Positions 1,934 to 9,327 of a DNA stretch of 9,327 nucleotides are shown in pieces. A program made the translations under genes and the position numbers. Under the pieces are notes generated by a model. It was not told where the DNA came from and searched no databases. It saw only the letters and a program-made list of their open reading frames with translations. Each line of letters starts with the position of its first letter. The first letter of the stretch is position 1. The stretch comes from Candidatus Fermentibacterales bacterium. GTDB lineage: Bacteria; Fermentibacterota; Fermentibacteria; Fermentibacterales; JAFGKQ01. The DNA lies in contig JAFGKQ010000112.1 in assembly GCA_016928495.1 (NCBI GenBank), forward strand, positions 1 through 9,327, given 5' to 3'.

Positions 1934-3397
1934 ATGCCTCATCTCGAAGACCTGACGCTCAGCGATCTGCGCAAGCTGTTCCCGGACGAGTTCACCGAGG
2001 AGCAGCTTGCCAAGGCCAAGACCATGTTCCTCAAGGAGCTGGCCCTGCGCGCCCACGCTTTCTACCACGGCAAGATGATCACGGTTCCGAAGGCCGGCCT
2101 CTACGGGTTCAACTGGTTCAACGTCTGGTACACCCCCGGAGTATCCAGGATCTCCACGACGATAAGGGACGACAACGACGCTTCCTTCGAGCTGACCAAC
2201 CGGGGCAACTTCGTGGGTGTCGTGAGCGACTCCACCAGGGTGCTGGGGGACGGGGACTGCACGCCTCCGGGGGGACTGGGCGTGATGGAGGGCAAAGCCT
2301 TCCTCATGAAGTACCTCGGAGGCGTGGACGGCGTGGCCCTGTGCCTGAACAACAGGGACGAGAACGGCAAGCCCGATCCCGACAAGATCATCGACTTCGT
2401 GAAGATGGTCGAGCCCAGCTTCGGCGCGATCAACCTGGAGGACATCTCGCAGCCCAACTGCTTCAAGGTGCTCGACACCCTGCGCGAGGAGTGCAACATC
2501 CCGGTCTGGCACGACGATGCTCAGGGCACCGGGTGCGTGACCCTGGCCGGGCTTCTCGGAGCTCTGCAGGTAGTCGGCAAAAAGCTCGAGGAGATCAGAA
2601 TCGTCTTCATAGGAGCCGGAGCCTCGAACACCACCATAACCAGGCTGATCATCCAGGCCGGTGGCGACCCGAAGAAGATGGTGATGTTCGACTCTCACGG
2701 CTCGCTCTCCACCGACAGGGATGACATCCGGGCCGACAAGCGCTTCTACAGGAAATGGGAGCTGTGCGAGAAGACCAACCCGGACAGGATCACGACGATC
2801 GAGGATGCCTGCCGTGGGGCAGACGCGCTGATAGCCGTCTCCAGACCCGGCCCCGACGCCGTAGACCCTGAGTGGATAAGCTCGATGGGCGACAAGCCCA
2901 TCGTGTTCGCCTGCGCCAACCCGGTGCCCGAGATCTATCCCTACAGGGCCAGGGAGGCCGGTGCGCACATAGTGGCAACCGGGCGAGGCGACTTCCCGAA
3001 CCAGGTGAACAACTCTCTCGGCTTCCCCGGCATACTCAAGGGTGCACTCCTGGTCAGGGCCAGGAAGATCACCGACAACATGGCCGTTGCCGCTGCCAAG
3101 TCACTGGCGAGGTTCGCCGGGCGGAGGGGATTCACCCCCTACTACATCATCCCCACAATGGACGAGGCCGACGTGTTCCCGGAGGAGGCGGCCGATGTCG
3201 CGATGCAGGCCATCGAGGACGGCGTAGCGCGTGTCGAGAAGACCCGAGAGCAGCTCCTCAAGGAGGCCAGAAGGGACATCACGGAGGCCAGGAGCCTGGT
3301 GCAGAGGCTCATGGATCAGGGAGTGATCAGCCCTCCGCCGCGGGAGATCCTCGAGAAGGCGATAGAACTGGCCATCGACAGCGTGAAGAAGAGCTGA
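1934..3397 (+). CDS. Malic enzyme (malate dehydrogenase, oxaloacetate-decarboxylating)
   Basis: A complete 487-residue cytosolic enzyme. The family oxidatively decarboxylates malate to pyruvate and CO2 with NAD(P)+, linking the TCA side of metabolism to pyruvate. Family landmarks in order: YTPGV (66-70, candidate catalytic Tyr66); SDSTRVLGDGD (98-108); VMEGKA (117-122, candidate catalytic Lys121); FGAINLEDI (163-171) and WHDDAQGT (192-199), whose acidic residues fit the divalent metal site; the dinucleotide-binding GAGASN (227-232); CANPVPEI, with its Asn at 329; and NNSLGFPGI (359-367). The segment after GDGD is CTPPGGLG rather than the usual GxxxxxGxP style, so it is a somewhat divergent branch. 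The last 75 or so residues are helical and charged. No phosphotransacetylase domain follows, unlike long MaeB proteins. NAD versus NADP preference cannot be read; FDSHG after the binding fold hints at NAD. The gene stands alone on the plus strand, ending 19 bases from the convergent hydrolase gene. Confidence 0.96.
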   Translation: MPHLEDLTLSDLRKLFPDEFTEEQLAKAKTMFLKELALRAHAFYHGKMITVPKAGLYGFNWFNVWYTPGVSRISTTIRDDNDASFELTNRGNFVGVVSDSTRVLGDGDCTPPGGLGVMEGKAFLMKYLGGVDGVALCLNNRDENGKPDPDKIIDFVKMVEPSFGAINLEDISQPNCFKVLDTLREECNIPVWHDDAQGTGCVTLAGLLGALQVVGKKLEEIRIVFIGAGASNTTITRLIIQAGGDPKKMVMFDSHGSLSTDRDDIRADKRFYRKWELCEKTNPDRITTIEDACRGADALIAVSRPGPDAVDPEWISSMGDKPIVFACANPVPEIYPYRAREAGAHIVATGRGDFPNQVNNSLGFPGILKGALLVRARKITDNMAVAAAKSLARFAGRRGFTPYYIIPTMDEADVFPEEAADVAMQAIEDGVARVEKTREQLLKEARRDITEARSLVQRLMDQGVISPPPREILEKAIELAIDSVKKS

Positions 3398-4919: not shown

Positions 4920-6704
4920 CTAGAGCTTCAGAAGCCTCGCGGTAGCTGACTGATCCCCCGCCTGCAGCCTGGCAAGGTAGACTCCTGCAGGCAGGCGGCT
5001 CCCGTCCAACTGGCAACTCAATGCTCCCGCCATCGCCTCGCCATCGAACAGCACCTCGACGAGCCGGCCGCTGAGGTCGTAGACGCCAAGCGACGCGGTC
5101 GCCGGGGAACCCGGCTCCGCCCACAGGGTGACCGAGCAACTGAAGGGGTTCGGGAAGGCCCGGACAGCACAACTCCCGGCCGAAGGAGGATCGCCCTGAT
5201 CCCCGTAGACAGAGGTCACGACCGAGATCCCTTCGTTCTCGACGGCCAGGTAGAACTCCTCCACATCGAGGCCGGTGTAGAAGTCAACGATGCCCGAGGG
5301 CCATTCAATCACCAGAGAGTCGAGTGTCTCCGCCGCCCCGAGCCCGAACTCGACGTTGAAGCTCTCCTGAGCGTTGAAGCCCTGATGGCCGCTGACCTCA
5401 CGGTGCTGGGAGACAAGGGTGTCGACCAGGATGGCAGCCGCAGTCAACCTGGCTCCGATCCCCGACGCATTCGACGCGGTACCCACGAGCCTGATGTTGA
5501 CCCAGCTGTTCCCGGACAGGCCGTTATTCATGTAGAGGAAGTTGCTCTGAGGCGGGGCCTGGCCGTTGGGAACGAACATATCGAGAAAGCCGTCGTTGTT
5601 GTAGTCGGCCCACGTGGCCCCGTTCGACCTGCCCCCGTTGCTGACGATGTCTCCGGTCGTGATCCGGGTGAAGCTGCCATCCCCGTCGTTCAGGTAGAGG
5701 AAGTTGTCCTCGTTCCAGTCGTTCGTGACGTACAGGTCCAGGTGGCCGTCGTTGTCGTAGTCGCCCCATGCCCCGCTCACGGAGTTCCCTCCGTCGCTCA
5801 CGACGCTCCCGGACGTCACTCTGGAAAAGGACCCGTCACCCTCGTTCCGGTAGAGCTGATTGTCCTCGCCATACCAGTTCGCTACGAACAGGTCGAAATC
5901 CCCGTCGTTATCGTAGTCGCCCCAGCTTCCGCCGGTGGATATCCGGACATCGGTGACCACGATGCCCTCGGTGAGCTTCGTGAACGTGCCGTCCCCGTTG
6001 TTCAGGTACAGGAAGTTCGCGATGGCCACGCCATTGAACGGATCGCTGTTGGCCGTGAACAGGTCCTGGTCCCCGTCGTAGTCGAAGTCACACCAGCTCG
6101 AGCTCAGACAGTGCTCGCGATCGTTGACCGGGTCCCCCTCCGTTACCTTCGTGAACGTGCCGTCCCCGTTGCCGTGGTACAGGGAGTTGTTCTCGCCGAA
6201 GCTGGTGAACGCCCCGTTGTCGACGTAGATGTCCAGGTTGCGGTCGTTGTCGTAGTCCACCACACTGGAGTTGAACGACCACCCGCCGTCGCTCACGATC
6301 TGCCCCGAGGTGACCTTGGTGAAGCTGCCGTCTCCGTTGTTCAGGTACAGGTGGCTGTTCATGCCCTCCCAGTTCTGGACGAACAGGTCCAGGTCACCGT
6401 CGTTGTCGAAATCCCCGAAGCTGCATCCCGAGGACCTGCTGATATCGGTCACCACCGGGCCCTCGGTGACCTGCGTGAAGCTGCCGTCCCCGTTGTTGAG
6501 GAATAGCAGGTTCGACCTCTCGGCATAGGCATCAGGAACGAAGACGTCGAGAAGGCAGTCGTTGTTGATATCGCCCCAGGACGAGCCCTCGGAGTATCGG
6601 TCATCGTTGACCAGCGGCCCCTCGGTTATCCTCGTGAAGTCCTGGGCCTGAACCTGTAGCGCGAGGAGGGCCAGGCACGCTAGCGGGTTCGTCAGCCTCG
6701 TCAT
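4920..6704 (-). CDS. Secreted FG-GAP/VCBS repeat protein with ASPIC/UnbV and C-terminal sorting domain
   Basis: 594 residues. The ATG at 6704 follows GGAAGGGAG (6711-6719). A signal peptide ends near VQA-QDF (residue 20). Residues 24-397 are seven FG-GAP/VCBS-type repeats of 52-57 residues, each with a DxDNDGDLD-like calcium-loop motif and ending near LYLNNGDGSF; seven units suit a seven-bladed beta-propeller. Residues 398 to about 490 match the ASPIC/UnbV domain (SWVNIRLVG, GIGARL, REVSGHQGFNAQ, FGLG, VIEWPSG). Residues 513-594 are a type IX secretion or FlgD-like C-terminal domain, with FPNPF, VYDLSGRLVE and LPAGVYLARLQAG. The protein should be exported and held on or released from the outer surface, probably for adhesion or ligand binding; no enzyme motif is seen. 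Nearly the same tail occurs in the gene at the right edge. Confidence 0.93.
   Translation of the reverse strand: MTRLTNPLACLALLALQVQAQDFTRITEGPLVNDDRYSEGSSWGDINNDCLLDVFVPDAYAERSNLLFLNNGDGSFTQVTEGPVVTDISRSSGCSFGDFDNDGDLDLFVQNWEGMNSHLYLNNGDGSFTKVTSGQIVSDGGWSFNSSVVDYDNDRNLDIYVDNGAFTSFGENNSLYHGNGDGTFTKVTEGDPVNDREHCLSSSWCDFDYDGDQDLFTANSDPFNGVAIANFLYLNNGDGTFTKLTEGIVVTDVRISTGGSWGDYDNDGDFDLFVANWYGEDNQLYRNEGDGSFSRVTSGSVVSDGGNSVSGAWGDYDNDGHLDLYVTNDWNEDNFLYLNDGDGSFTRITTGDIVSNGGRSNGATWADYNNDGFLDMFVPNGQAPPQSNFLYMNNGLSGNSWVNIRLVGTASNASGIGARLTAAAILVDTLVSQHREVSGHQGFNAQESFNVEFGLGAAETLDSLVIEWPSGIVDFYTGLDVEEFYLAVENEGISVVTSVYGDQGDPPSAGSCAVRAFPNPFSCSVTLWAEPGSPATASLGVYDLSGRLVEVLFDGEAMAGALSCQLDGSRLPAGVYLARLQAGDQSATARLLKL
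5514..6635 (-). repeat. Seven tandem FG-GAP/VCBS-coding repeats
   Basis: Seven consecutive coding repeats of about 156-171 bases within the propeller protein. Unit residues are 24-76, 77-128, 129-184, 185-241, 242-293, 294-345 and 346-397. Each opens with T(R/K)(V/I)T(E/S/T)G and carries the D.D.DxxLD core mid-unit. Units 3 and 4 are longer through an insertion after the calcium loop. Unit 7 lacks the final GDGSF and passes straight into the ASPIC/UnbV domain. The first position of the loop and the LD pair are kept in all seven. Confidence 0.9.
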
Positions 6705-6839: not shown

Positions 6840-6878
6840 CCGGCAAGCCGTTCACTACTCTGCCTGCCTCGCGTCTGC

Positions 6879-6898
6879 TCCCGCTCGACCGGGCGGGA
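6879..6898 (-). terminator. Possible terminator hairpin after the methyltransferase, no U-tract
   Basis: On the minus strand TCCCGC and GCGGGA pair as a 6-bp stem with an 8-base loop, starting four bases after the TAG at 6902-6904. The position suits a terminator, but no run of T follows, so it is at best a weak or factor-assisted one. Confidence 0.3.
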
Positions 6899-6901
6899 CC
6901 C

Positions 6902-7039
6902 CTAACGGCTGGTCACCACGGTGTAGTGGGGAATCAGCCGCTTCTCTGGAACGTAGTACTGCTTGTGGAAGCAGGTCCGAGCCCTCTCGAAGCCGAGCGC
7001 CCTGAGAAACCTCCGCACTGCCAGGGGGCTGATGTACCA
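6902..7039 (-). pseudogene. Detached C-terminal part of the methyltransferase, downstream of the in-frame TGA
   Basis: Directly after the TGA at 7040-7042 the same frame continues for 45 residues to a TAG at 6902-6904. The sequence is clearly protein-like: WYISPLAVRRFLRALGFERA, a His-Lys-Gln-Tyr-Tyr stretch, and an end in HYTVVTSR. Such endings (a Trp-rich turn, a helix ending in LGF, then strands ending in TVV) are usual for this methyltransferase class. This is the natural C-terminus, cut off by one codon and not by a frameshift. No separate start codon or binding site for it is visible. It would be made only by stop-codon readthrough, or the TGA is a sequence error. Confidence 0.75.
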
Positions 7040-7702
7040 TCAGGTGAGGTCGTTCGTTGCTCTCGGCGGGTCGGGTATGAAGGTCATCGTTGGTGCATTC
7101 CTTACCGTGATCCTGTGGCAGAAACGCATCAGTAGTCGCAGCACGAGTCCCCCTGTTGGTCGTTGAGCGGGTGGCATCACATCCGTCACGATCACCGACT
7201 CCGTGGCAATGCGGCCGGCTCGCTGGAGCGCCAGAAACGGGTCTCGCAGGTGGAGCAGAATGGAGCCGAAGAGGGCTACATCCACTTCCCCGATCTCATC
7301 CACCGGCAGGTCGTACACCGACCCACGTACGAGCCTTGCCCTGGACCCGAAGCTTGCATGGGCCAGCTCCCACCCCCTGCGGATACGCTCGATGTGGGCC
7401 TTCATCGCCGCACGTCGGTCAGGGTTGGCAGCCCCGCCATAGGGGATGAAATCCCAGTCCTGTTCTGGTGAGAGATCGAAAGCGACAACCGACGCGCCCA
7501 TTCTCTCCATCTGGAAGCAAAGGAACCCGCTCGAAGTGCCCACATCCAGGACGCGCTTGCCGGCAAGATCCACATTCCCCAAGTAGTCGACCACCCCGCG
7601 CCTGAGGTCCCACTGGCCCTCCACTTCCCCGTGTCCGGGGAGATCCATGGAGTGGTAGAACTCGCAGCTCTCTAGCTGCAGAGACCCGGAACTATCCTGC
7701 AC
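7040..7702 (-). CDS. Class I SAM-dependent methyltransferase, interrupted by an in-frame TGA at codon 221
   Basis: GTG at 7702 is chosen because GAGGGAG (7711-7717) lies 8 bases upstream; a TTG at 7735 is possible but has no binding site. The 220 residues before the TGA carry YHSMDLPG (16-23), GQWDLR (29-34), the SAM-binding motif VLDVGTSSG (51-59), the strand-2 acid Asp76 in VVAFD, and DVALFGSILLHLRDP (141-155). It resembles the methyltransferase class related to tRNA cmo5U-type enzymes and glycan or lipid methylases; the substrate is unknown. Compared with the family, the protein lacks its last strand block at the TGA, where the coded context is T-stop-W-Y and family logic suggests T-W-W-Y, so one G-to-A change (TGG to TGA) explains it. 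TGA also closes three other genes here, so it normally means stop. Confidence 0.85.
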   Translation of the reverse strand: MQDSSGSLQLESCEFYHSMDLPGHGEVEGQWDLRRGVVDYLGNVDLAGKRVLDVGTSSGFLCFQMERMGASVVAFDLSPEQDWDFIPYGGAANPDRRAAMKAHIERIRRGWELAHASFGSRARLVRGSVYDLPVDEIGEVDVALFGSILLHLRDPFLALQRAGRIATESVIVTDVMPPAQRPTGGLVLRLLMRFCHRITVRNAPTMTFIPDPPRATNDLT

Positions 7703-8766: not shown

Positions 8767-9126
8767 GTGACATCGATCTGGTACGCCGACTTGATCTCTC
8801 AACGAACCCTGCCCGGCCCTCCGATCTGGTTGCCGACCATGCGGTTCAGGAAAGAAGCCCTCAACCGCCCTCCCAAGACCTACCGCAACCCGGTCATCTA
8901 TGCCCGTGAGCTCCACGACGAGATGGTCCGTGACGGCCTTTCAAGGAAGCAACTGGCTGAAAGACACAGTATCTCCCCCGACAGGATCACCCAGTGGCTC
9001 TGTCTCCTGAAGCTGCCGGAGGAGGTCCTGACCGAGATCGAGAGCCTGGGCGACAATTGGGACAGGCAGGTGGTAACCGAGAGGGAGCTGAGGGAGATCA
9101 GGAGATCTACAGCTTCACGAGCCTGA
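8767..9126 (+). CDS. Small ParB/Spo0J-like helix-turn-helix DNA-binding protein
   Basis: 119 residues if it starts at GTG 8767 (GGGCGG six bases upstream, weak); ATG at 8839 would give 95 residues and keeps the whole recognisable domain. The start is uncertain. Residues 44-90 read as helices ending in a helix-turn-helix: YARELHDEMVRDGLSRKQLA, then ERHSISPDRITQWLCLLKLP. The pattern (GLSRKQLAE, S.DRITQ.L.LLKLPEEV) matches the central HTH of ParB/Spo0J partition proteins and of short stand-alone HTH proteins found near recombinases. No ParB N-terminal nuclease-like domain is present. The tail has TERELREI, a motif I recall from the stand-alone group. No partner ParA or recombinase is in the window. 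It is the only plus-strand gene in the right half and its last 20 bases overlap the opposite gene's end. Role, probably DNA binding, is inferred. Confidence 0.7.
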   Translation: MTSIWYADLISQRTLPGPPIWLPTMRFRKEALNRPPKTYRNPVIYARELHDEMVRDGLSRKQLAERHSISPDRITQWLCLLKLPEEVLTEIESLGDNWDRQVVTERELREIRRSTASRA

Positions 9127-9327
9127 CGGTGGCAGACTGACCTCCTGCCTGCAGCCGGGCGAGGTAGACGCCTGCCGGCAGGCGACTGCCGTCCAGCCAG
9201 CAGCTCATGGGCCCCAGTGGGGCCTCTCCATCGAAGGGAGTCTCGATAAGGCGGCCGGAGAGGTCGTAGACACGAAGAGATACGGGTCCCGGACTGGCCA
9301 GCTCGAACACCATCGTAACAGAGCCCC
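9107..9327 (-). CDS. C-terminal sorting domain of a secreted protein, 5' part beyond the window
   Basis: Only the last 72 residues and the TAG (9107-9109) are visible; the frame runs off the right edge, so an ATG at 9313 is internal and not the start. The sequence is GSVTMVFELASPGPVSLRVY onward, with VYDLSGRLIE, FDGE and LPAGVYLARLQAG, ending SATVRLVKL. It is the same type IX secretion or FlgD-like domain as in the VCBS protein, sharing an identical 18-residue run (LDGSRLPAGVYLARLQAG). The domain marks cargo for export and surface attachment; what the cargo does cannot be seen. Confidence 0.85.
   Translation of the reverse strand, partial: GSVTMVFELASPGPVSLRVYDLSGRLIETPFDGEAPLGPMSCWLDGSRLPAGVYLARLQAGGQSATVRLVKL

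Follow-up and report, generated by a model that had tools for sequence, protein, structure and literature searches.

In-frame stops of pseudogenes arise most often from a set of codons that includes TGG, and do so by a single transition (PMC8629427). In Mycoplasmatales, Zinderia, and others, UGA is recoded to Trp and TGA stands at conserved Trp codons, as it does in the gene described here. In E. coli, UGA readthrough has been reported at the background level of the endogenous tRNA-Trp(CCA), and a tRNA-Trp with a 4-bp stem boosts this readthrough (PMC13092985). The window analyzed here is a stretch of 9,327 nucleotides from the draft genome of a Candidatus Fermentibacterales bacterium, and it contains a methyltransferase frame with a TGA at an otherwise invariant Trp codon.

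The interrupted methyltransferase frame and its relatives

The original prediction described a methyltransferase frame interrupted by a single TGA. This interruption is real: reading from 7702 to 6902, the TGA is the only internal stop, and an independent whole-genome search listed '1 TGA' within the frame. The coordinates given for the frame at that time hold as plus-strand numbers; the strand was not named and is in fact minus (Table 1). The part before the stop matches the Pfam profile PF08241 (Methyltransf_11) with 28.1 bits, above the gathering cut-off of 21.2. An AlphaFold run on the methyltransferase without an alignment gave a pLDDT of 36 and was discarded.

Table 1. Features of the window discussed in the text (positions are plus-strand numbers).
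Feature	Position	Strand	Remarks
Class I SAM-dependent methyltransferase frame	6902..7702	-	GTG at 7702 to TAG at 6904-6902; 265 sense codons and one internal TGA
Alternative start (TTG) of the methyltransferase frame	7735	-	
In-frame TGA, first Trp of the invariant T-W-W motif	7040..7042	-	From the alignment with seven homologues
Pre-stop part of the frame	7043..7702	-	220 codons from GTG; contains the methyltransferase domain match
Post-stop part of the frame	6905..7039	-	45 codons, conserved; WYISPLAVRRFLRALGFERARTCFHKQYYVPEKRLIPHYTVVTSR
ATG frame overlapping the TGA (TGATG)	6855..7040	-	61 codons; judged a shadow frame
FG-GAP/ASPIC repeat protein	4920-6704	-	Type IX-like C-terminal sorting domain
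Partial protein	9107-9325	-	Type IX-like C-terminal sorting domain

A search of 60 genomes recovered full-length relatives of the methyltransferase from five same-order genomes, with 48-51% identity, and one partial copy with 46% identity; searching 42 members of the order added no further relatives. A contig scan with the methyltransferase protein brought up no named relative. In the seven homologues that cover the site (loci L003-L007, L010, and L011; genomes G002, G004, G006, G010, and G038), a T-W-W motif is present throughout, its first Trp aligns with the TGA, and none of the seven has an internal stop. The alignment across the codon that had been proposed earlier thus returned Trp in 7/7 same-order sequences (46-51% identity), in agreement with the suggested change from TGG to TGA in a TWW-type motif. 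The TGA at 7042-7040 is one G-to-A transition away from TGG, the changed base being window position 7040. The homologues align across the site in one frame, showing that no base was gained or lost there, and the homology continues through the 45 codons after the stop, so that both sides are family-like, as had been stated. A natural end of the homologues at this point had been named as grounds for refutation, and this objection falls away because no homologue (0/7) ends at the TGA. Three relatives (G004:C82, G006:C4, and G010:C2) carry prfB, which encodes RF2, at a distance of 2-5 kb from the methyltransferase gene. Unlike these neighborhoods, the window does not contain prfB.

Identity to the relatives is 48-51% in the pre-stop part, compared to 48-57% among the distant relatives themselves, and 35-42% over 43 columns in the post-stop part, compared to 30-48% among distant relatives. 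Relative to this between-relative range, there is no excess decay before or after the TGA. Only two of the 11 columns after the site that are invariant in six full-length relatives are altered in the window, both conservatively (L to I and R to K), and the GC content at the three codon positions of the post-stop part (0.53/0.47/0.84) is coding-like. The open tail alone is unconvincing, with about 25% of shuffles stop-free over 45 codons; it is the homology, and not the lack of stops, that establishes the tail as conserved. Judged by its sequence, we take the methyltransferase tail to be still in use, or to have been in use until very recently.

The ATG that overlaps the TGA and opens the 61-codon frame would be compatible with a split gene, in which coupled reinitiation at the TGATG starts a second protein. 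The register of this frame differs from that of the conserved one, which runs through the TGA site in all relatives and has the coding-like GC pattern. As the methyltransferase frame is the one of the two that is conserved in seven relatives, we rejected the second ORF as a shadow frame and regard reinitiation as extremely improbable.

Genome-wide use of TGA and the missing RF2

For the codon counts, the proteins of relatives were aligned to about 0.5 of the 2.3 Mb of the genome of the window and coding-like frames were kept, which yielded 124 homology-supported stretches. The comparison sequence comprised 1.0 Mb from relatives, nearly all of it from G006. In this GC-rich genome, an unfiltered scan for in-frame stops was dominated by shadow frames, most of which were removed by a filter on GC by codon position. 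In the 124 sampled stretches, conserved Trp columns are encoded by TGG 318 times and by TGA once, namely at the methyltransferase site. When 61 genes were checked for the first stop past the end of the homologue, this was TAG in 36 and TGA in 25 cases. The TGA is a working terminator, since 23 of these 25 TGA gene ends fall at most 10 residues from the end of the homologue. TAA was not used in any of the 61 sampled genes, whose stop usage is unusually TAG-rich. In the window itself, TGA ends the malic enzyme, jelly-roll (CBM-like), and HTH genes, as observed earlier. A scan with the malic enzyme matched sequences of many phyla and did not place the genome clearly.

A genome-wide reassignment of UGA to Trp was suggested by the missing RF2. 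A profile search of the contigs found no RF2 gene in the 81%-complete draft, and two matches to the prfB model are pieces of RF1, as judged by their sequence and by the neighboring prmC, which lies beside one of them. The RF1 gene is split over two contig ends (C203:3-710 and C196:4701-4973). Given the presence of RF2 in 40/41 relatives and a draft completeness of 81%, its gene has most likely just been missed by the assembly. At first plausible from the absence of RF2, recoding is ruled out by the codon counts and gene ends, i.e., by the ratio of 318 TGG to one TGA at conserved Trp positions and by TGA ending genes where their homologues end. Furthermore, RF2 is kept by nearly all relatives, and the sole tRNA-Trp found in the draft has the canonical CCA anticodon. 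The probability that we assign to genome-wide reassignment is therefore negligible, and the original view that it is unlikely is borne out by the TGG count, the 25 TGA-ended genes, and the canonical tRNA-Trp. In this case, counts across the genome settle the question of recoding at once. The case mainly serves as a warning that a solitary TGA in place of a Trp codon, when met in a draft assembly, is no evidence of recoding.

Readthrough and selenocysteine at the internal UGA

If the near-cognate tRNA-Trp(CCA) read the UGA at some frequency, this functional readthrough would yield two products, a truncated methyltransferase and a full-length one that has regained its Trp. In favor of this explanation, tRNA-Trp reading UGA would be expected to insert Trp, the tail after the TGA is conserved, and background readthrough is known from E. 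coli. Against it stand the lack of any known enhancing feature at this site, the 53-71 nt at the TGA, which fold less stably than most shuffles, and the homologues, none of which (0/7) has a stop at the site, so that there is no conserved readthrough site. In the tRNA-Trp of the genome, with the anticodon CCA, the anticodon stem is 5 bp long (CCGGA/TCCGG) and the G24-C11 pair is intact, so that this tRNA is neither of the 4-bp-stem nor of the Hirsh type (types: PMC13092985). No suppressor tRNA-Trp (UCA, or CCA with a 4-bp stem or G24A) was seen in the draft, which is 81% complete, and we rejected such a tRNA since the tRNA-Trp that was found is canonical. Altogether, we consider functional readthrough unlikely, and it is even more doubtful that the UGA is a leaky stop kept in the species, with a short and a long methyltransferase and Trp in the long form. 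Leakiness of UGA could yield a little full-length methyltransferase, and nothing marks programmed readthrough. Retention of the TGA in conspecific genomes would make the site a candidate for naturally occurring readthrough of UGA.

Insertion of selenocysteine had to be considered because the organism has both SelB (305.9 bits) and tRNA-Sec (74 bits), each scoring over its cut-off. This explanation is opposed by the homologues, which have Trp at the site in 7/7 cases and in no case Cys or Sec, and by the sequence from the TGA onward, which folds worse than shuffles (z +1.0 and +1.8) and thus gives no indication of a SECIS-like hairpin. The hairpin test is weak because a plausible selenoprotein from the same genome, L227, also failed to stand out strongly, with z +0.34 and -1.31. 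With Trp in the relatives and no stable hairpin after the stop, we rejected selenocysteine at the methyltransferase TGA as very improbable. L227 (G000:C98, minus strand, TGA at 2322) is a thioredoxin-like secreted protein that carries the sorting domain Por_Secre_tail, for which the draft has 33 matches. Its frame reads TG-TGA-SSC at the place where the G006 homologue has Cys (SACSYC), and with both SelB and tRNA-Sec present in the genome, L227 is likely a UxxC selenoprotein.

Origin of the stop and comparison with known systems

The genome otherwise uses TGA as a stop, so the TGA described here most likely goes back to an ordinary, recent nonsense mutation or to an erroneous base call rather than to a new genetic code. 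We are confident that the locus would prove to be an ordinary methyltransferase gene with a recent nonsense change or a draft-consensus error. A real recent nonsense mutation is the probable cause, an error in the base calls or the strain consensus of the fragmented draft is a possible but less likely one, and causes other than mutation, consensus error, or natural readthrough are hardly to be expected. A real mutation and an error have the same appearance in the assembly and are not separable from it. Of the three options named in the original prediction (mutation, error, and readthrough), readthrough is the least supported.

If the mutation is real, the TGG codon of an invariant Trp would have turned into TGA with 45 codons left to the end of a class I methyltransferase gene, and RF2-dependent termination at the UGA would result in a protein of about 220 residues that lacks the conserved C-terminal part and is probably inactive. 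The change would be recent enough for no further decay to have accumulated, or carried by only part of the population, or an error of the draft. Two observations count against the mutation: the 81%-complete draft yielded no RF2, though 40/41 relatives have it, and the absence of post-stop decay is equally expected from readthrough or a base-call error.

Lone nonsense codons occur in roughly one per hundred compared genes, both in the draft and in a relative. An MFS transporter frame (L224, G000:C69, minus strand) contains a lone TAG at 3138 in place of a conserved Tyr; homology is good before and after this stop, and the frame is otherwise intact. In the relative G006, a lone TAA is found at a Phe position inside a conserved frame. 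Because these stops also occur, single stops of all three kinds represent background.

Among described methyltransferases, NCBIfam TIGR04290 is matched weakly by all seven aligned family members (best E 4.3e-14), and the window protein, which reaches 52.5 bits where the cut-off lies at 300, does not belong to it. The same-order homologues (G002, G004, G006, G010, and G038) have the frame, the T-W-W motif, and the C-terminal tail in common with the window gene but, unlike it, are without an internal stop. Compared to recoding of the Mycoplasmatales or Zinderia type, only one site is affected here, TGA is a normal terminator, the tRNA-Trp has a CCA anticodon and a 5-bp stem, and the relatives have RF2. 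The isolated nonsense mutation or young bacterial pseudogene, which in the window gene is indistinguishable from a consensus error on the assembly alone, shares with this locus the single stop, the conserved frame, the distance of one transition from the ancestral Trp codon, and the absence of other decay.
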